From positions 1 through 53,886 of the forward strand of contig JAFSTO010000047.1 of the NCBI GenBank assembly GCA_017450435.1: DNA of 53,886 nt, in the 5' to 3' direction. The first letter of the stretch is position 1; every line of letters starts with the position of its first letter. Shown piece after piece: positions 9,001-19,735 of this stretch. Source of the DNA: Paludibacteraceae bacterium (lineage in GTDB: Bacteria > Bacteroidota > Bacteroidia > Bacteroidales > Paludibacteraceae). The notes below the pieces were generated by a model, which was not told the DNA's origin, did not search any database, and saw only the letters and a list, made by a program, of their open reading frames with translations. Position numbers and translations under genes: made by a program.

Positions 9001-9030
9001 ACGTTCGGACATTTATAATGAACCGAACGT
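9001..9030. terminator. Terminator hairpin between convergent thiL and heptose operons
   Basis: ACGTTCGG (9001-9008) pairs perfectly with CCGAACGT (9023-9030) across a 14-nt loop. On the minus strand it is followed by a U-rich TTGTTTCTTA, so it best serves the heptose operon. The stop codon of that operon's last gene lies in the loop (9015-9013). Confidence 0.65.
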
Positions 9031-10239
9031 CTGCAAATCAGGAATAATAATATCGGTGTAATCCCGTACCTGCTCAGGTATGGGATTATTATTTGTCAGG
9101 AACACCGCTCTCATACCGGCATTAGCCGCGAACTGCATGTCCGTCAGGCTATCTCCCACCATTACCGCTCGCGAAAAATCCACCTCAGGGAAGTCACGCT
9201 TAGCCCTGAGTGCCATTCCTATAGCCGGTTTGCGGTCAGCACTGCCTGATGTAGCGAGATCGGCGCACACATATACGGCATCCACCCTGCCTCCGGCGGC
9301 TTGTATATCTGCGAGCATCAGTGCATGCACTGACTCCAAGTCAGCATTGCTCATCAAGCCTTTTCCGACCCCCTGCTGATTGCTGACCACAAAAATCCGC
9401 TTATACCGCTTAGCAAGCAGAGGCATAGTGTCCAACACACCGTGTATCCACTGCCATAAATCGGTATTTCGAACATAATCGCCCGGTAAGTGGCGGTTGA
9501 GCACACCGTCACGGTCAAGGAAAAGGAACTCATCAGAGGGAAAAAGACTAAGAAACTCTTTCTGCGCACGATAATAATCATCAGGCACGCCTATATCTAT
9601 GAAATAGCCCTCAGCACGAAGTGCGCAAAAGCCCTCTTGTCCCGCAAGAGGCTGCATCAAATCGTTTTCAAACGAGAACTTTTGCGGCAGCGCCAAAGTA
9701 AGCAGCCACTGCCTGTTGACCGCATACACCCCGCCATTGATAAGAGCCGGAACCGAATCGCCCATCTTCTCACAGAAAGAGACAACCTTATTCTGCCGGC
9801 ACTCCACCACACCATACCTGCTACCATCACTCACCTGCCTTAGAGCTACTGTAAGATTAGCATGACAAGACAAATGAAAATCACAAAAAAGGTGTAAGTC
9901 TATATCGAACAACGTATCGCCGTTCAGCACCAGAAAGTCATCACTTTTAAGCATCATCGCCGCTTGTCTCACCGCTCCGCCGGTAAAGAGAGGAGTCTGC
10001 TCTTGTGAGTAAGACAACTTCATACCCCTAAACGAATCTCCGAACCGCGCCGCTATGACCTCATGCTTATACCCTGTTGCCAACACTACATGTTTCAGTC
10101 CGGCATCAGCCAGCCGCATAAGAAGCCAGAACAAAAAAGGTCTGCCGGCGACAGGCGCAGCAGGTTTGGGTACATTGGCGACAACATGACTAAGACGTGT
10201 GCCAAATCCTCCGGCAAGAATAACAGCCTCCTCAATCAT
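9013..10239 (-). CDS. hddC: Fused heptose-1-phosphate guanylyltransferase / heptose-1,7-bisphosphate phosphatase
   Basis: A 408-residue bifunctional protein. Residues 1-226 are a sugar-1-phosphate nucleotidyltransferase of the HddC type (GGFGTR at 10-15, LNGD at 106-109). Residues 237-385 are a HAD-IIIA phosphatase of the GmhB type (DRDG at 242-245, SNQQGVGKG from 286, RKPAIGM at 336-342, GDSLTD at 362-367). Together they remove the C7 phosphate from D-glycero-D-manno-heptose 1,7-bisphosphate and activate the 1-phosphate with GTP. The zinc loop of classical GmhB (CxH...CxC) is largely missing: only C325 remains before RKP. The gene overlaps gmhA by 8 bp and ends a four-gene operon with GT4, hddA and gmhA. 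The domain calls are firm; the GDP rather than ADP product is inferred from pairing with HddA. Confidence 0.88.
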   Translation of the reverse strand: MIEEAVILAGGFGTRLSHVVANVPKPAAPVAGRPFLFWLLMRLADAGLKHVVLATGYKHEVIAARFGDSFRGMKLSYSQEQTPLFTGGAVRQAAMMLKSDDFLVLNGDTLFDIDLHLFCDFHLSCHANLTVALRQVSDGSRYGVVECRQNKVVSFCEKMGDSVPALINGGVYAVNRQWLLTLALPQKFSFENDLMQPLAGQEGFCALRAEGYFIDIGVPDDYYRAQKEFLSLFPSDEFLFLDRDGVLNRHLPGDYVRNTDLWQWIHGVLDTMPLLAKRYKRIFVVSNQQGVGKGLMSNADLESVHALMLADIQAAGGRVDAVYVCADLATSGSADRKPAIGMALRAKRDFPEVDFSRAVMVGDSLTDMQFAANAGMRAVFLTNNNPIPEQVRDYTDIIIPDLQTFGSL

Positions 10240-10810
10240 GCTTAAACATAACAGCCTCCACCATCTGACAAATAGCGTGTCCTACCAATATATGTGCCTC
10301 TTGAATACGCGGTGTATCAGTGGAGGGTATATTTATTAGATAGTCAGATAATTCCTTCATTTTTCCTCCTGTTTCTCCCGTGAAAGCTACAGTAATGACA
10401 CCTATTTCACGAGCCTTAACAAAAGCATTATATATATTAGCAGAGTTGCCTGACGTGGATATCCCGACAAGTACGTCCCCTTTTACACATGCTCCGTCAA
10501 TCATACGCGAATAGATAAGGTCGTATCCATAGTCGTTAGCAACAGCGGTCAGATAAGAGGTGTTGCAGTGCAATGCTTCTGAGTTAAGCGGCGGCCTGTC
10601 GAAGTAGAAACGTCCGGAAAGCTCGGCAGCAAGGTGTTGTGCATCGGCTGCACTACCTCCGTTGCCACACCACAAAACGCGATGCCCGTTCTGCAATGCA
10701 TCTATCAATACATCAGCAACACTGTTGATAGTGGCTATTAACTCTGTGTTCTCCAACAAACGAGTCTTGACAGCAATGCTGTCCTCTATAGATTGTCTTA
10801 TAACGTCCAT
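10232..10810 (-). CDS. gmhA: Phosphoheptose isomerase (sedoheptulose 7-phosphate isomerase)
   Basis: A 192-residue SIS-domain enzyme converting sedoheptulose 7-phosphate to D-glycero-D-manno-heptose 7-phosphate, the entry step to heptose precursors. The family motifs are clear: CGNGGSAADAQHLAAELSG (48-66) with the predicted catalytic E63, STSGNS phosphate loop (118-123) and IQEAHILVGH with the predicted catalytic H178. Length matches GmhA. It overlaps the upstream hddA by 13 bp and the downstream hddC fusion by 8 bp, so the three pathway steps are tightly coupled in one mRNA. Cytosolic. Confidence 0.94.
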   Translation of the reverse strand: MDVIRQSIEDSIAVKTRLLENTELIATINSVADVLIDALQNGHRVLWCGNGGSAADAQHLAAELSGRFYFDRPPLNSEALHCNTSYLTAVANDYGYDLIYSRMIDGACVKGDVLVGISTSGNSANIYNAFVKAREIGVITVAFTGETGGKMKELSDYLINIPSTDTPRIQEAHILVGHAICQMVEAVMFKHD

Positions 10811-11823
10811 GTCTTTAGTCCTTCCTGTGTAAATTCATATCTCTTAACTTGCCCTGCAAAACGGTTGCACAAAGCCTGTTCAACCGCATACCGGCTTGTG
10901 CCCGGGCAGTAGAAAAACATAAACCCTCCACCGCCGGCTCCACTCACTTTGCCGCCGGAGGCTCCGGCTGCGAGAGCGGTATTGTAGATATCATCCAGCA
11001 TCGGATTCGTTATCCCTTTTGCCGTTTGTTTCTTGTGTTCCCAGCCGAAAGCCAGAATCTTGCCTATAGCGTCTATATCTCCACGTAGTAAACACTCTTT
11101 CATCCACTCTGCCTGCCGTTTCAGTTGGTGCATTGCTTCGACTGAACGGTCGTTCTTAGCCGTTACATTGTCAATCTGACCACGGATAATCTCAGCGCTC
11201 ACCCTTGAAGTCTGTGTATAGTAGAGCAGAAGATTGTGCGCCAACTCATCCTGATAACGCTGGCGGATACGCAGAGGGTTAACAATAACCTTATCGTCCT
11301 TGAGAAACTGCATATAGTTAAATCCGCCGAAGGTGGCAGCATATTGGTCTTGCTTTCCGCCTGCCATATTGAGGTCAAGTCTCTCTATCTCGTATGCAAG
11401 TCTCGCCATATCATATTCGCCAAGCGGCAGTTTCAGCCATTCGGCAAAAGCACCGAGAATACTAACCACCAGAGTGCTGGACGTACCGAGTCCGCTACCT
11501 GCCGGCGAATCGACGTGGCTGGTGATGCGAAACGAAAGAGGGGCATGGGTAAACTCACGAACAACCCTGTTATACACTCCTCTTGCAAGAACGAAAAAAC
11601 CATCCGTCTCTATCTGCTCCTTCGCTTCACAGGTCTCTTCCAAACCGGCATCAGGGGATGAGAAGACTATACGTCCGTTGTCAAGAGGTTCGATAGTGGT
11701 GTAGGCGTATAGCGAAATAGTGGCATTCAGGATTGCCCCTCCATACAAATCAGAATAGGGGGACACATCCGTTCCCCCGCCTGCCAACCCGAGTCTTAAT
11801 GGTGCCTTACTGCGTATAAGCAT
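10798..11823 (-). CDS. hddA: D-glycero-alpha-D-manno-heptose-7-phosphate kinase
   Basis: A 341-residue GHMP kinase that phosphorylates heptose 7-phosphate at C1. It has the N-terminal APLRLGLAGGGTDV signature (about 7-20) typical of HddA, the ATP-binding loop PAGSGLGTSS (107-116) and the C-terminal glycine-rich GKVSGAGGGGF (291-301). HddA makes the alpha-1-phosphate that HddC turns into a GDP-heptose; this differs from the HldE route to ADP-beta-heptose. Fucokinase-like GHMP kinases look similar, but the operon with gmhA and an HddC/GmhB fusion settles the assignment. It lies 14 bp downstream of the GT4 gene. Confidence 0.92.
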   Translation of the reverse strand: MLIRSKAPLRLGLAGGGTDVSPYSDLYGGAILNATISLYAYTTIEPLDNGRIVFSSPDAGLEETCEAKEQIETDGFFVLARGVYNRVVREFTHAPLSFRITSHVDSPAGSGLGTSSTLVVSILGAFAEWLKLPLGEYDMARLAYEIERLDLNMAGGKQDQYAATFGGFNYMQFLKDDKVIVNPLRIRQRYQDELAHNLLLYYTQTSRVSAEIIRGQIDNVTAKNDRSVEAMHQLKRQAEWMKECLLRGDIDAIGKILAFGWEHKKQTAKGITNPMLDDIYNTALAAGASGGKVSGAGGGGFMFFYCPGTSRYAVEQALCNRFAGQVKRYEFTQEGLKTWTL

Positions 11824-14180: not shown

Positions 14181-15638
14181 ATGACCGACAAACAATTTTG
14201 CATGAGCTCTTATCTTGCCTTCCGCTATATAGAGCGTAGCGACAAAGATTTTTACGACGGCCTGAAACATGAAAATATACGCCCTATACCGCAAGAGGAA
14301 ACGATACCAGTACATACAACGGCAGACATTGACCGTGAAATACAGAAACAGTTTGACGCTCTTAGAGGCAAACGTCTCGGAATATTCCTGTCAGGCGGCA
14401 TGGACTCAGCATGCCTTGCGTCATATATGAAGGGCGCAGATGCCTACACTTTCCGTTTCTTAGGTGGAGAGTTTCAAAAAGAAGAACTGCGCAAGGCGGA
14501 ATATTACGCCAAATACTATGGTCTTAACCTGCACTATGTTGACATTGACTGGAGCATAGTCGAGAAATATCTTGCACCATGTATGGAGCACAAAGGTGCT
14601 CCGGTTCATTCTATTGAACCACAACTTCTTGCAGGAGCATTACAAGCCAAGGCAGACGGAATAGAACTAATGATTATCGGCGAGAGCAGTGACCTACTGT
14701 TCGGCGGTATGGACAAACTGCTTGCTAAAGACTGGGAATTCGATGAATTTTCCAAACGCTATACCTTTACTGAGCCCGCTGATATCCTACGCGAGCCGGT
14801 AGATATGAGTTATCTGTACGAACGCTATCGTCAAGGCAACAAGATTGACTTCATGCGTTTTATGGACGAGGTGTTTTCAATAGAAAGCAGCAGTTCGTAT
14901 CTTAATGCCTTTGCAGTAGCTGACATGCCTTACCTTGATCCCTATGCCAAACTACGCATGGCTGAGCCACTGGACCTCAATAGAGTACGCAACGGTGAAC
15001 CCAAATATCTTATTCGAGCACTTTTCCACTCTAAATATCCTGACATACCAATTCCTGACAAAACCCCGATGCCTCGCCCGGTTGACGAGTATTTCAAAGA
15101 ATGGAGCGGTCCTACACGTCCGGAGTTCCGCCGGGATATTGACATGACCCGACTAAGCGGAAACCAGAAATGGCAATTATATTGTCTTGAGCAATTTTTG
15201 AACATGCACGAACCTCTTCGCATCGGATATACAACAGGCGTGTATGACCTCTTTCATATAGGACATCTCAACCTGCTTCGCAAAGCAAAAGCACAATGTG
15301 ATTACCTGATAGTCGGTGTATCCACGGACGAGCTGGTCGGATATAAAAACAAACATGCAGTTATTCCCTTTGCCGAACGCAAAGAGATAGTGAAAGCCAT
15401 ACGCTACGTAGATGAAGTGGTCACACAGGCTGACATGGATAAATTGGCAGCATGGCGCAAATATCATTTCAACGTTATGTTTGTAGGCGATGACTGGAAA
15501 GGAACCGACAAGTGGAATAAAATCGAACAAGACATGAAGCAAGTCGGCGTTGAACTTGTATATTTCCCATATACCAAAGGAACATCATCAACGCTCATAA
15601 ACGAAACTCTAAACAAACTACGCGGAGAACATGCTTAA
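14181..15638 (+). CDS. Fusion of asparagine-synthase-like PP-loop domain with glycerol-3-phosphate-type cytidylyltransferase
   Basis: A 485-residue protein with two unrelated enzyme domains. Residues about 45-300 are an asparagine-synthase-type ATP pyrophosphatase with the PP-loop SGGMDS at 71-76 and GESSDLLFGG at about 167-176. The N-terminal Cys-glutaminase domain of true asparagine synthetase is absent. Residues about 346-480 are a nucleotidyltransferase of the TagD/TarD class: TTGVYDLFHIGH with the HxGH motif at 359-362, and the TKGTSST loop (465-471) equivalent to the RTEGISTT motif. The second half should make a CDP-activated polyol phosphate such as CDP-glycerol. The first half should adenylate a carboxylate or similar group and pass it to an amine. 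The next gene is a CDP-glycerol-type transferase whose ATG overlaps this stop region by 8 bp. The domain calls are firm; the joint product is unknown. Confidence 0.85.
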   Translation: MTDKQFCMSSYLAFRYIERSDKDFYDGLKHENIRPIPQEETIPVHTTADIDREIQKQFDALRGKRLGIFLSGGMDSACLASYMKGADAYTFRFLGGEFQKEELRKAEYYAKYYGLNLHYVDIDWSIVEKYLAPCMEHKGAPVHSIEPQLLAGALQAKADGIELMIIGESSDLLFGGMDKLLAKDWEFDEFSKRYTFTEPADILREPVDMSYLYERYRQGNKIDFMRFMDEVFSIESSSSYLNAFAVADMPYLDPYAKLRMAEPLDLNRVRNGEPKYLIRALFHSKYPDIPIPDKTPMPRPVDEYFKEWSGPTRPEFRRDIDMTRLSGNQKWQLYCLEQFLNMHEPLRIGYTTGVYDLFHIGHLNLLRKAKAQCDYLIVGVSTDELVGYKNKHAVIPFAERKEIVKAIRYVDEVVTQADMDKLAAWRKYHFNVMFVGDDWKGTDKWNKIEQDMKQVGVELVYFPYTKGTSSTLINETLNKLRGEHA

Positions 15639-16818
15639 ATTTATTGCCTATATACTCTGCTATATATTCTATCCTCTGTCTTTTATCTTTCCAAGAAGCA
15701 AAGACATCTATGTTTTCGGTGCCTTTCACGGCGCATTCATTGACAACCCGAAATATCTGTTTCTTTACTGCAACGAACACCTGCCCAATAAACACTGCAT
15801 TTGGCTAAGTACCTCAAAAGAAGCTGTTAACCAAGTGCGCCGTCTGGGATATGAAGCATACCACATGGGAACAATTAAAGGCTGGTGGTATGGACTGCGC
15901 GCCAAATATTGGTTTATCAACTGCTATACATCTGATATCCTTTTCTGCATTGCCGGCGGTGCTACTGTCGTTAATTTATGGCACGGTGTACCAATGAAAT
16001 GTATAGAATTCGGAATAACAAAAGGAGAATTGAAGAAAAGATATATTGACAAAGAGTTCCGGGAAGTATTTTACCACCCGGCCTCTTTTCGCCGGCCGGA
16101 CTATTTTGCCTCTACAACTCCTTTCTTTGACGAAGTATTCTCCACATCATTCAGAATCGACAAAAGCCGTTGTCTTCATATCGGGTGCGCACGCAACCAA
16201 CTATTGATACAACCAAAAGAGAACACACTTGCCCATATTAGGAAATACGAAAGTCCTGCTGCTAAAGAAATTATCGATAAAATATCACATTACCGGACCG
16301 TATATGTATATATGCCCACATGGCGAGATAGTCAGTTGGAAATATTTGCCAACGGCTTCGACCTTGAACAGTTCAACTCTGTTCTACAGCAAACAGACAG
16401 TATAGCACTGATGAAACCGCATATTAATACAAAGTACGACAACACTCAAACCTACTCGAACCTTATATTCATTGACGGCAGCGTGGATATTTATCCCATT
16501 CTTCCATTTACGGACGTATTGATAACCGACTACTCCGGAACCATTTATGACTACATTCTTATGCCCGAAAAAGGAATAATACTATTCCATTATGATTACG
16601 ATGAGTATGTACAAGAACGCGAATTTATTTTTGATATACGCGAAAATATAGCAGGCAAACAAGTATTCACCTTTGAAGAATTACTTGCAGCCATCAAAAC
16701 AAAAGACCATAACGTTGACAACGCCAAACGTCAATTTATAATAGATAAGTTTTGGGGTGACACCATGCAACACGATGTATGCGTAAATACTCTCAAACAA
16801 CTAAAAATCCTATCATGA
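15631..16818 (+). CDS. CDP-glycerol:glycerophosphotransferase family protein
   Basis: A 395-residue member of the TagB/TagF (Glyphos_transf) family. It has a hydrophobic N-terminus (about 3-20) that can dip into the inner membrane, NLWHGVPMK (115-123) with the family's catalytic-type His at 118, KPHINTKY in the second half and TDYSGTIYDY (299-308), the conserved nucleotide-binding segment. In Gram-positives such enzymes build teichoic acids. In a Gram-negative locus with Kdo and heptose genes, transfer of a glycerol phosphate or related group to a core or surface glycan is the likely role. It overlaps the cytidylyltransferase fusion by 8 bp and the next glycosyltransferase by 4 bp (ATGA), so donor synthesis and transfer are coupled. 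Confidence 0.9.
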   Translation: MLKFIAYILCYIFYPLSFIFPRSKDIYVFGAFHGAFIDNPKYLFLYCNEHLPNKHCIWLSTSKEAVNQVRRLGYEAYHMGTIKGWWYGLRAKYWFINCYTSDILFCIAGGATVVNLWHGVPMKCIEFGITKGELKKRYIDKEFREVFYHPASFRRPDYFASTTPFFDEVFSTSFRIDKSRCLHIGCARNQLLIQPKENTLAHIRKYESPAAKEIIDKISHYRTVYVYMPTWRDSQLEIFANGFDLEQFNSVLQQTDSIALMKPHINTKYDNTQTYSNLIFIDGSVDIYPILPFTDVLITDYSGTIYDYILMPEKGIILFHYDYDEYVQEREFIFDIRENIAGKQVFTFEELLAAIKTKDHNVDNAKRQFIIDKFWGDTMQHDVCVNTLKQLKILS

Positions 16819-17750
16819 GAAGCTTGCAAACATATCTTGAGATTCTGAAGAAGAAAGGCTTTTACGTGTGCTTTCAGGAGCTGCGCAAAGCAGTGCAACC
16901 AATATGGATTACCCGTCAACGCGGTGCTATTGAGCGCATCATGCAAGAACGCTCCTATCGCTATCTGCTTCGCCACTATTCTCAAGTAGCCGCCGAGCCG
17001 CTCAGAGAAAATAGTGACTTGCCACAACATGAACAAACGACCATTTCCAAGCATATTTGGATATGTTGGCTGCAAGGCGAAGACCAAATGCCGGACATTG
17101 TGAAAAAATGCTATAACTCTGTCAAAACGTTTGCCCCTGACTATACAGTCCACCTCATCACCAATGTCAACCTGTTTGAGTATGTCAGCCTGCCGGAGCA
17201 TATCGTTAGCAAGTATCGTAAAGGCATCATATCTTTCACTCACTTTTCTGATATTCTGCGCACCTGCCTTCTCTACGAACACGGCGGCTTATGGTTAGAC
17301 TCCACCGTTCTGCTGACCGGTCCACTTCCTACGTATGTTACATCCGAACCTATCTTCGTCTATCGTCCGTCATGGCTACAAGATACACGTTCGGCACTTA
17401 GCAGCTGGCTCATTGCTGCGATACCACACCACCCTCTTACTGCAAAACCACGGCAACTGCTCTTTGAATACTGGAAGCGTGAGAACAAACTGCGAGACTA
17501 CTACCTCTATCATCTTCTCTTCCGTATTGCGACAGAGAAAAACAGCGCGTGCCGCCAAGCATACATGCAAATGCCGTATATCTGCAACGCCGCACCTCAT
17601 ACGATGCAATACCGCATCTTTGAACCATATACCGACACATTGTGGCAACAGATAACCCGGCAAAGCAGTATTCACAAACTATCATGGAAATTCAAAGATG
17701 AGCAGAAAAACATACCTGACACCATATACCAACATGTCCTTTCGCTATGA
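16815..17750 (+). CDS. Glycosyltransferase with DXD-like motif (GT32/capsular polysaccharide type)
   Basis: A 311-residue GT-A-type glycosyltransferase resembling the Caps_synth/GT32 sugar transferases. It has the opening strand HIWICWLQGEDQMP (about 80-93), the FTHFSDILRTCLLYEHGGLWLD run with HGGLWLD at 156-162 in place of the usual YGGIYLD, and a following STVLL. The start at 16815 is chosen because its ATG overlaps the TGA of the preceding gene (ATGA). An ATG 36 bp further upstream is possible but would overlap more and adds polar residues. No signal peptide. The donor and acceptor are unknown; the locus suggests a step in the same surface glycan. Confidence 0.8.
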   Translation: MRSLQTYLEILKKKGFYVCFQELRKAVQPIWITRQRGAIERIMQERSYRYLLRHYSQVAAEPLRENSDLPQHEQTTISKHIWICWLQGEDQMPDIVKKCYNSVKTFAPDYTVHLITNVNLFEYVSLPEHIVSKYRKGIISFTHFSDILRTCLLYEHGGLWLDSTVLLTGPLPTYVTSEPIFVYRPSWLQDTRSALSSWLIAAIPHHPLTAKPRQLLFEYWKRENKLRDYYLYHLLFRIATEKNSACRQAYMQMPYICNAAPHTMQYRIFEPYTDTLWQQITRQSSIHKLSWKFKDEQKNIPDTIYQHVLSL

Positions 17751-18646
17751 TTTCCGTCATTGTCTGCACATATAACCGCGATAAATACATCTACGAATGT
17801 CTCTCTCGTCTTGCTGCCAACCGCAGCACTGAGCAATGGGAACTGCTGTTGATTGACAACAACTCCACCGACTCTACAGCGTCAGAGTGCCACCGCTTTG
17901 AGCAAGACTGCCATCCTATCAACTATCGCTATATCACAGAAGAGCGCCAAGGACTCAGTTATGCCCGCAACCGCGGTATGCAGGAGGCTAAAGGAGAGTG
18001 GTACATCTTTCTTGACGACGACGCCTTTGTACAACCTGATTATATACAGACGCTTGCCGAATATATATCATCCATGCCCGACATGCACGCCTTCGGCGGA
18101 CGTATCATACCGTTTTACGAAGCAGGTTCGGCACCCAAATGGCTCTGCAAATGGAACAGGTCATGGCTATCGGCTATTGACAAAGGCGATAACGTATGTC
18201 TCTTCAACGGAACGGAATACCCGATAGGTGCCAACATGGGTTTCAAAGCAGATATGGCACACAAATGCGGTATATTCAACACTACACTCGGACGAACCGG
18301 AAAAAACCTTATAGGAGGAGAGGAAAAAGACTATTTTAATCGGCTAAAGGCATTAGGTGCAAACATATATTATCTGCCGGCGCTGACAGTAGAACACTGC
18401 ATACCTCCAAGCCGCACCACCTACGAATACATCAGTCGTTTAGGTGCCGGAATCGGGAGCAGCGAGAAACTACGGACATTAGATATCGGCAAATCTGCGT
18501 ATGCCAAACGGCTCGCCTCAGAAGCGGTTAAGTGGGCGGGCACGATATGTCTTGCAGCCATATATACTCTGCAATGCCGGACCGAATGTGCCAAATCGCT
18601 TATCCTATTCAGGGCACAGGTTAGCAAACACCTTATTGAGGGATAA
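17747..18646 (+). CDS. Glycosyltransferase family 2
   Basis: A 299-residue inverting GT-A enzyme. MISVIVCTYNR at the very N-terminus, the LLLIDNNSTDST nucleotide-binding stretch (33-44), RQGLSYARNRG (68-77) and the metal-binding DDDA at 90-93 are all typical of GT2. The region FGGRIIPFYEAG and GGEEKDYFNRL are acceptor-side motifs of the WcaA-like subgroup. A hydrophobic stretch near the C-terminus (about 265-280) may contact the membrane. It is the last gene of the operon, joined to the previous one by ATGA, and ends 48 bp before a strong bidirectional terminator. Confidence 0.9.
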   Translation: MISVIVCTYNRDKYIYECLSRLAANRSTEQWELLLIDNNSTDSTASECHRFEQDCHPINYRYITEERQGLSYARNRGMQEAKGEWYIFLDDDAFVQPDYIQTLAEYISSMPDMHAFGGRIIPFYEAGSAPKWLCKWNRSWLSAIDKGDNVCLFNGTEYPIGANMGFKADMAHKCGIFNTTLGRTGKNLIGGEEKDYFNRLKALGANIYYLPALTVEHCIPPSRTTYEYISRLGAGIGSSEKLRTLDIGKSAYAKRLASEAVKWAGTICLAAIYTLQCRTECAKSLILFRAQVSKHLIEG

Positions 18647-18693: not shown

Positions 18694-18724
18694 AAAAAAG
18701 CGAAAGTCACACTTTCGCTTTTTT
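18694..18724. terminator. Perfect bidirectional terminator
   Basis: AAAAAAGCGAAAGT (18694-18707) and ACTTTCGCTTTTTT (18711-18724) pair perfectly over 14 bp with a 3-nt CAC loop, giving a U-tract on either strand. It ends both the plus-strand glycan operon and the minus-strand GT10 gene, whose stop codon lies in the loop (18709-18707). Confidence 0.9.
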
Positions 18725-19735
18725 CATTAAAGTTTGAGTTATCGCCCACAACCATGGTGAACGACGAGTCAGCTGGTAGATATACTTGGTATAAAACGTT
18801 CTCAAAAACCCCATTATTGAGCGTTGATACGCTTTCACTTCCTGCTCGCGCCTGCGCTGCAATTTCAGTTGCCAGTAATCGCGCGAAAAACGTTTGGCTG
18901 CTTCCTTGTCCTGACTGAAAATATCAAACAAAAACTTATCCAACTGCCTATTATATTCTTCCACCCTCTTCTCATCATTCATCGCCGGTGCCCCTACCAT
19001 TTGACACCATAGAGCATCATTCTCATCTATCTGACGAACCCTTTCAACCACTTGTTCAAAACTGTCGTAGTCGGAACAGTTCAGGAAAGAAGCAGGATTG
19101 AAATCCGTCGTAACACATGGATCTCCCCAATAGATTGGTACAGCACATGCTCCGAATGCTTGAACAAGTTTTTCTGTAGTATAGCCGTTGTGACGGGCAT
19201 TCTCAAAAGCAATGACGAACTTATGCTTTAGCTGAAAAGCAAGTTTATCTTCTACAGCACCACCAACATTATTCCTGTATCTGCCCCCCGAGTTCACTTT
19301 CTTGTAAGCAGACAACGCATCATAAAAAACGTCTCTCAGCTTAGAGGCATTGGAATTGCTATAAACGAAGCTACAAAAGTCTGTCTTCGACTTGATATCC
19401 GCATTCAAATGCTTGTTCCGCATATTCTCCACATCCGCAGGATAGTTGAGCCATAGAGGGAATCGCAAATACCTGTCGCCGAAACTAAGATTTTCGAAGC
19501 CTATCGCATAGTCGCAGAAGTTAAAATCAGGTGCCTGGTTTTCTCCCGTCCAAAACAGCTTAACACAATTGCCGTACCTCAGGTGCTCGGAGCCAAACAC
19601 GGAATAAACCACCCAGTCAGGTTCGTCGGAGAGTTCCAAGTCAAAGAGCATATCCAGCCTCTGCTTGATATAGAAACGGTCAATGTTGTAACCCTGGGCA
19701 AAGTCAACAAACTTTATTTTCAGTTTCTTCTTCAT
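18707..19735 (-). CDS. Glycosyltransferase family 10 (fucosyltransferase-like)
   Basis: A 342-residue GT10-type enzyme; family members transfer L-fucose from GDP-fucose in alpha-1,3 or 1,4 linkage. The diagnostic segment FENARHNGYTTEKL is at 177-190, followed by AFGACAVPIYWGDP (193-206). This matches the fucosyltransferase signature FENS...GYVTEK...G.VPVY.G. The N-terminal half has WTGENQAPD in the position of the usual FTGEN motif. The C-terminal tail is rich in K and R with a possible amphipathic helix, as in Helicobacter fucosyltransferases. The last codons and stop run into the terminator at 18694-18724. It overlaps the upstream YfhO-like gene by ATGA. The acceptor is unknown; no GDP-fucose synthesis genes are in the window. 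Confidence 0.85.
   Translation of the reverse strand: MKKKLKIKFVDFAQGYNIDRFYIKQRLDMLFDLELSDEPDWVVYSVFGSEHLRYGNCVKLFWTGENQAPDFNFCDYAIGFENLSFGDRYLRFPLWLNYPADVENMRNKHLNADIKSKTDFCSFVYSNSNASKLRDVFYDALSAYKKVNSGGRYRNNVGGAVEDKLAFQLKHKFVIAFENARHNGYTTEKLVQAFGACAVPIYWGDPCVTTDFNPASFLNCSDYDSFEQVVERVRQIDENDALWCQMVGAPAMNDEKRVEEYNRQLDKFLFDIFSQDKEAAKRFSRDYWQLKLQRRREQEVKAYQRSIMGFLRTFYTKYIYQLTRRSPWLWAITQTLMKKAKV

Follow-up and report, generated by a model that had tools for sequence, protein, structure and literature searches.

A gene in a 53,886-nucleotide stretch of DNA from a Paludibacteraceae bacterium (contig JAFSTO010000047.1, hereafter the window) encodes a PP-loop synthetase of the AsnB type joined to a cytidylyltransferase of the TagD class, and its end overlaps the gene for a Glyphos_transf phosphotransferase (Table 1). 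The domain pair is real and recurrent. We tentatively propose that the gene encodes a bifunctional CDP-carboxamide synthase whose product, CDP-glyceramide, feeds a Glyphos_transf-mediated decoration of a surface glycan. The PP-loop half would adenylate a small phosphorylated acid at its carboxylate, which it would amidate with ammonia, and the cytidylyltransferase half would join the phosphate of the acid to CTP; either half may act first. With 2- or 3-phosphoglycerate, the likeliest acid, the product would be CDP-glyceramide. The overlapping Glyphos_transf enzyme, or LicD in many relatives, would then move the phospho-glyceramide group to a surface glycan built with the downstream glycosyltransferases. 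The system is a variation on CDP-activated glycan decoration. Its more general part, amidation of a phospho-acid combined with activation by CTP, we consider probable.

The reading frame, Pfam matches and motifs bear out the original prediction, made from the sequence alone, that one protein combines a PP-loop domain (SGGMDS, no glutaminase) with a TagD-class cytidylyltransferase, and its coordinates were right. Asn_synthase (PF00733) matched residues 65-191 with 50.3 bits and CTP_transf_like (PF01467) residues 350-473 with 66.5 bits (cut-off 21 for each), and a glutaminase (GATase) domain gave no Pfam match at E 0.01. The motifs SGGMDS, HIGH and PYTKGTSST were read in the protein. A structural model had been suggested as a check; AlphaFold2 gave a confident one with two domains (mean pLDDT 91.1, pTM 0.89). 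A catalytically dead PP-loop half, raised in the original prediction as a finding that would count against it, is not supported, because the SGGxDS motif is conserved, as SGG[MIL]DS in 83/83 close PP-loop relatives. H[IV]GH is likewise kept in 71/71 cytidylyltransferase relatives.

The Asn_synthase domain, the SGGxDS motif and the predicted fold place the PP-loop half in the AsnB-type synthetase superfamily, and carbapenam synthetase and beta-lactam synthetase are among its matches by fold. It is not a typical asparagine synthetase: the fused protein scored 39.7 bits with TIGR01536 (cut-off 267.1), and the PP-loop family has the motifs KxPMPR, WxGPxRxEF and APVHSIE. When this family was compared with two AsnBs by hhalign, only residues 63-174 were aligned, the substrate pocket lying outside the residue-by-residue comparison. 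The C-terminal half has the CTP_transf_like domain and HxGH signature of TagD/TarD but reached only 98.3 bits with the TagD/TarD equivalog model TIGR01518 (cut-off 165.4). Its best PDB sequence match is an ethanolamine-phosphate cytidylyltransferase (3elb), and the cytidylyltransferase domain of Fom1 (5x3d) matches it in both sequence and fold.

The original prediction had proposed searching for the domains and tabulating their neighbours. A scan of species genomes gave 313 relatives, of which the best 80 were kept, and counts are accordingly skewed to close relatives (at least 60% identity). Together with one phage contig these form a set of 81 loci, some of which share one genome (L112, L123) and 12 of which have less than 2.5 kb on one side. 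As counted by tblastn, a cytidylyltransferase lies within 1.5 kb of the PP-loop gene on the same strand in 78/81 loci. In the remaining three it is adjacent on the opposite strand (L128), 5.2 kb away (L172) or not found (L153). Of the 74 loci tested, 20 have the cytidylyltransferase fused 3′ of the PP-loop half, mainly in Paludibacteraceae, and elsewhere the halves are mostly separate neighbouring genes, which modifies the original picture of a fused protein. Sequence distances within one half correlate with those within the other (r 0.43 over all 74 loci and 0.45 over the 54 that are unfused, each above 999/999 permutations), and both parts were present in all eight whole genomes examined behind eight of the loci.

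The transferase, by comparison with the constant pair, varies. LicD and Glyphos_transf were counted with custom profiles iterated at E 1e-5, with Pfam run on few members. Within 2.5 kb of the PP-loop gene, 65/81 loci hold one or the other: Glyphos_transf alone in 32, LicD alone in 32 and both in 1. Matches occur at 0.184 per kb within this distance versus 0.017 elsewhere in the same loci, an eleven-fold difference in density, and the predicted link between the domain pair and transferases that use CDP-activated alcohols is upheld. L103, with neither LicD nor Glyphos_transf, has a CDP-alcohol phosphatidyltransferase in their place. As LicD, Glyphos_transf or another such enzyme alternates near the pair, a varying CDP-alcohol-type transferase accompanies it. 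Among neighbour clusters within four genes, GT2 glycosyltransferases are present in 23 loci and flippases in 14, and beyond the named families no cluster is found in more than 14.

The window transferase matches the TagF structure 3l7i with E 2.4e-19 and is TarF-like, although it scored 109.2 bits with the TarF model NF041712 (cut-off 550). No other PF04464 match was found in the Paludibacteraceae genome that encodes it (G000), and we presume that it uses the CDP-activated product of the fused protein. Its gene starts with an ATG in a different frame and shares 8 bases with the end of the fused gene, an overlap that had been predicted. The Caps_synth reading frame is listed from 16779; its ATG overlaps the Glyphos_transf stop as ATGA (4 bases), and the GT2 gene overlaps the Caps_synth gene by 4 bases in the same way. 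These successive overlaps argue for an operon-like arrangement of four or more genes.

Table 1. Positions of the fused gene, its two halves and the genes that follow it in the window.
Feature	Position	Strand	Details
Fused open reading frame	14181-15638	+	485 aa; stop TAA at 15636-15638
N-terminal PP-loop synthetase half, AsnB-like, without glutaminase	14181..15215	+	aa 1-345
C-terminal cytidylyltransferase half, TagD class	15216..15635	+	aa 346-485
Glyphos_transf (TarF-like) phosphotransferase	15631-16818	+	395 aa; PF04464 180 bits, cut-off 22.1
Caps_synth/Gly_transf_sug glycosyltransferase	16815-17750	+	PF05704 267.5 bits
GT2 glycosyltransferase	17747-18646	+	PF00535 107.8 bits

Amidation, which we propose with moderate confidence, is indicated by two loci in which the synthetase is of another form. 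In L179 and L215, cytidylyltransferases 60-61% identical to that of the window adjoin a complete, glutaminase-containing AsnB-like enzyme, and both clusters include a Glyphos_transf gene (PF04464). The AsnBs of the two loci share 47% identity across 615 columns; L179 is from a genome of the same order as the window and L215 from one of the family to which the Lachnospiraceae isolate of L137 belongs, apparently in different phyla. Because a glutamine-dependent AsnB-like enzyme stands in the same place, ammonia is the nucleophile that these loci point to, in a suggestive way. A single AsnB glutaminase query at E 1e-6 found no match in the 81 loci. The form that lacks a glutaminase would draw on free ammonia, which is abundant in rumen and gut.

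Since no neighbour cluster is widely common, the acid should be a central metabolite with both a phosphate and a carboxylate. The original prediction had envisaged an amidated or amino-acylated glycerol-phosphate-like unit. CDP activation and amidation are partly supported, whereas glycerol phosphate is not required as the substrate, because the C-terminal half falls below the TagD cut-off and because a phospho-carboxylic acid offers the amidating half a target where glycerol phosphate offers none. Two precedents bear on phosphoglycerate: D-glyceramide 2-phosphate substitutes GalNAc at O-3 in the O-polysaccharide of Providencia alcalifaciens O22 (PMC6222762), and CpgD makes CDP-glycerate and prefers 2-phospho-D-glycerate (PMC12275187; PMC13228409). 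By analogy with these, phosphoglycerate may be the acid, a choice that we hold less firmly than amidation itself.

Several observations weigh against CDP-glyceramide synthesis. To our knowledge, no carrier considered here bears glyceramide. The case for amidation comes from two loci, one of which (L179) has two AsnBs, and glycan loci often contain AsnB-like genes; the distance correlation is also expected from plain common descent of linked genes. LicD and Glyphos_transf are both missing within 2.5 kb in 16 of the 81 loci. The proposal leaves unexplained the additional PP-loop protein, of the PP2 type, in six loci, the DUF362-type neighbour cluster in 5/81 (Pfam run on L101 only) and the aminotransferase gene (PF00155) between the pair in L223, and some other loci hold a second close PP-loop copy. 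An IspD-like gene is present in 18/81 loci, mostly from Paludibacteraceae, and in L099 (5910-7271) an IspD-like domain fused to a short-chain dehydrogenase lies directly 5′ of the fused gene. This layout is one associated with CDP-ribitol synthesis, and the transferase in such loci may therefore use CDP-ribitol.

Cytidylyltransferase homologues that stand apart from a PP-loop gene add to these objections. In 20 extended loci, a PP-loop/AsnB gene was found in 7, an AsnB fragment at the edge in 1 and neither in 12. The L054 homologue (60% identical), which has no PP-loop gene, overlaps a glycerophosphodiesterase-like (GDPD-like) gene, a layout that would fit plain glycerol phosphate. FrhB-like 4Fe-4S genes lie directly 3′ of such homologues in L216, L217 and L219 and one gene further in L226, and the L229 homologue is fused to a methyltransferase-like domain. 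In L231 (6580-7629) and L233 (6905-7945), PdxA-like genes (PF04166) adjoin a cytidylyltransferase homologue and LicD, which hints at another CDP-activated small molecule. Given such varied neighbours, the cytidylyltransferase family probably handles several substrates.

The PdxA-like neighbours, like the L223 aminotransferase, suggest varied phospho-acids, and they bring forward an explanation that is unlikely but deserves weight: that the acid amidated by the PP-loop half is phosphoserine, 4-phosphoerythronate or another such C3-C4 phospho-acid, so that a different CDP-carboxamide results. The evidence for amidation and CTP activation fits this equally well. However, no gene for the synthesis of an unusual acid is common to most loci, and we know of no such group from glycans.

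Amino-acylation is less likely still. Here the PP-loop half would link an amino acid, through its carboxylate, to the amine group of a phospho-amino-alcohol such as phosphoethanolamine, and the resulting amide would be activated by CTP. With no glutaminase in the synthetase half the nucleophile need not be ammonia; carbapenam and beta-lactam synthetases, both among the fold matches, use amines as nucleophiles, and the closeness of the other half to 3elb would suit phosphoethanolamine. The glutaminase-containing partners in L179 and L215, by contrast, imply ammonia.

We regard as rather improbable, a little more so than amino-acylation, that the halves have two unrelated jobs, the C-terminal half making CDP-glycerol for Glyphos_transf and the PP-loop half amidating a uronic acid or some different component of the same glycan. 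The C-terminal half is nearest by sequence to TagD and ethanolamine-phosphate cytidylyltransferase, the window transferase is TarF-like, and the GDPD-like overlap in L054 also agrees with such a division. Yet the halves are fused in one group and adjacent in nearly all other loci, with correlated distances; LicD replaces Glyphos_transf in 32/81 loci, and the C-terminal half scores below the TagD equivalog cut-off.

Tailoring of a phosphonate (aminoethyl- or hydroxyethyl-phosphonate activated in the manner of Fom1/PntC), which the match to the Fom1 domain would favour, is very improbable, since 17 of the 18 carrier genomes tested (out of 38 family carriers) gave no match to PEP mutase (TIGR02320), and for genome G000, one of the 17 and 96% complete as assembled, this route is largely rejected.

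The proposed synthesis of CDP-glyceramide resembles several known systems in part. It shares with the wall teichoic acid enzymes TagD/TarD and TagF/TarF the cytidylyltransferase fold, the HxGH motif and a neighbouring transferase of the same superfamily, and differs in the fused or paired synthetase half, in scores below the TIGR01518 and TarF cut-offs and in the frequent replacement of the transferase by LicD. The original prediction had called teichoic-acid-type chemistry in a Gram-negative envelope locus unusual; it is less so, as TagF-like capsule polymerases of Gram-negatives are described in two reports (PMC8262930, PMC5974469). With the AsnB class (asparagine synthetase, TsnB9 and carbapenam/beta-lactam synthetase) the PP-loop half has in common the synthetase fold and SGGxDS; it is set apart by its lack of a glutaminase, its TIGR01536 score, its family motifs and the joined cytidylyltransferase. 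Caulobacter CpgD, a CTP:phosphoglycerate cytidylyltransferase, parallels the chemistry proposed for the fused protein, in which CTP activates phosphoglycerate for transfer onto an envelope molecule. CpgD, however, is of the COG1213 type, of an unrelated fold; its acceptor is a sphingolipid, the available text describes no amidation step, and its authors report no homology to TagD/TarD (PMC12275187). The fused protein gave TagD-class fold matches and no NTP_transferase-type Pfam match, COG1213 itself not being searched. Fom1/PntC also activates a small phospho-compound with CTP and is a cytidylyltransferase fused to another enzyme of its pathway (PMC6697681); in our case the fusion partner is a synthetase, and no PEP mutase was found in genome G000.

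The predicted group, a phosphate-linked glyceramide on a sugar, is like the D-glyceramide 2-phosphate of P. alcalifaciens O22, for which we found no description of biosynthetic genes in the open literature, as far as its text was available. Searches for the domain pair and for CDP-glyceramide, CDP-glycerate or glyceramide-glycan genes found no description of the pair in the open-access literature, most subscription journals lying outside it, which agrees with the original prediction that no enzyme with this domain pair has been characterised. If the proposal is true, an amide-forming step joins the small set of CDP-activated phospho-units that decorate bacterial glycans, candidate genes are provided for a known group, and many bacteria of gut and rumen that are known chiefly through metagenomes should bear such groups on their glycans.

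Related gene sets are present in many gut and rumen microbes. The PP-loop half matched in 38/358 genomes of the family and in 2/395 of a phylum sample, namely its own genome and one weak match; the whole fused protein matched in 18/295 genomes of the order, 16 of the 18 through the cytidylyltransferase half alone. The best 80 relatives come from Bacteroidales, Lachnospiraceae and other Clostridia, and Selenomonadales, with single metagenome-assembled genomes (MAGs) labelled, for example, Kiritimatiellae, Synergistales, Myxococcales and Methanomethylophilaceae, labels that may be wrong. Because identity is 60-85% across such distances and presence is patchy, lateral transfer is suggested. A DNA-level similarity search of an E. 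coli collection gave no match and is little informative at such divergence.

Of 64 matching plasmid records, 6 span 80% or more of the query, all from Lactiplantibacillus plantarum, where the Glyphos_transf, cytidylyltransferase and PP-loop proteins are encoded by consecutive separate genes; in both of the two records inspected this cassette lies inside a locus of the exopolysaccharide (EPS) type. Plasmid loci L056 and L057 have cytidylyltransferase homologues without a PP-loop annotation. On the 166.5-kb viral contig IMGVR_UViG_3300021399_000106 (L178, 7557-10134), genes for a cytidylyltransferase, a PP-loop protein and a Stealth-type transferase follow in a row, open throughout only if UGA is read as tryptophan, with a phage-type NrdD and a helicase among the neighbours. 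These occurrences would fit a wider picture, which we think possible but more doubtful than the proposal for the window gene: a mobile, undescribed pathway to CDP-glyceramide, or a close CDP-carboxamide, that has spread among Bacteroidota, Bacillota and further phyla and reached an archaeal MAG as well as the phage with UGA as a tryptophan codon. It would draw on the free ammonia of gut and rumen, and might both supply the route so far lacking for glycans with D-glyceramide 2-phosphate and serve more generally to add amide-bearing phosphodiesters to surface glycans.

Genome G000 is an assembly of 2.65 Mb in 76 contigs, in which the fused gene is single-copy and the one LicD gene lies on a different contig from the cassette. 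Relatives in genomes of its family include named Paludibacteraceae, in agreement with a host from this family of the Bacteroidales. G+C falls to its contig minimum (0.418) in the 2-kb interval 15001-17000, a weak hint of foreign origin, as several other intervals reach 0.44. Around the locus, no repeats of at least 20 bases were found, and a promoter/terminator scan returned about as many sites as in shuffled sequence. KdsC-like, KdsD-like and IspD-like clusters recur 5′ of the cassette in Paludibacteraceae; the window has no IspD-like gene beside it. The LPS core, an acceptor put forward in the original prediction, is a candidate at most: the Kdo and heptose genes are neighbours of the cassette, the functions of which lie in an EPS-type locus on the Lactiplantibacillus plasmids. 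As cassette neighbours vary among relatives, membership of the Kdo and heptose genes in the cassette is not supported.

A further PP-loop subfamily, with about 38-40% identity to that of the window, is paired with a DUF362 protein (L101, 9113-11378; L225; L230; L092-L094), sometimes beside the first PP-loop gene and sometimes alone with a cytidylyltransferase. In L076 (7743-10485, the same place as L156), an unfused PP-loop copy, 63% identical, lies directly 5′ of the fused gene. Elsewhere in the window, positions 9013-11823 on the minus strand encode an HddC-like guanylyltransferase fused to a GmhB-like phosphatase, followed by GmhA and HddA homologues, a set of the GDP-heptose type. Adjoining the cassette on the minus strand, at 18707-19735, is a FucT-type alpha-1,3-fucosyltransferase gene (PF18025, PF00852).

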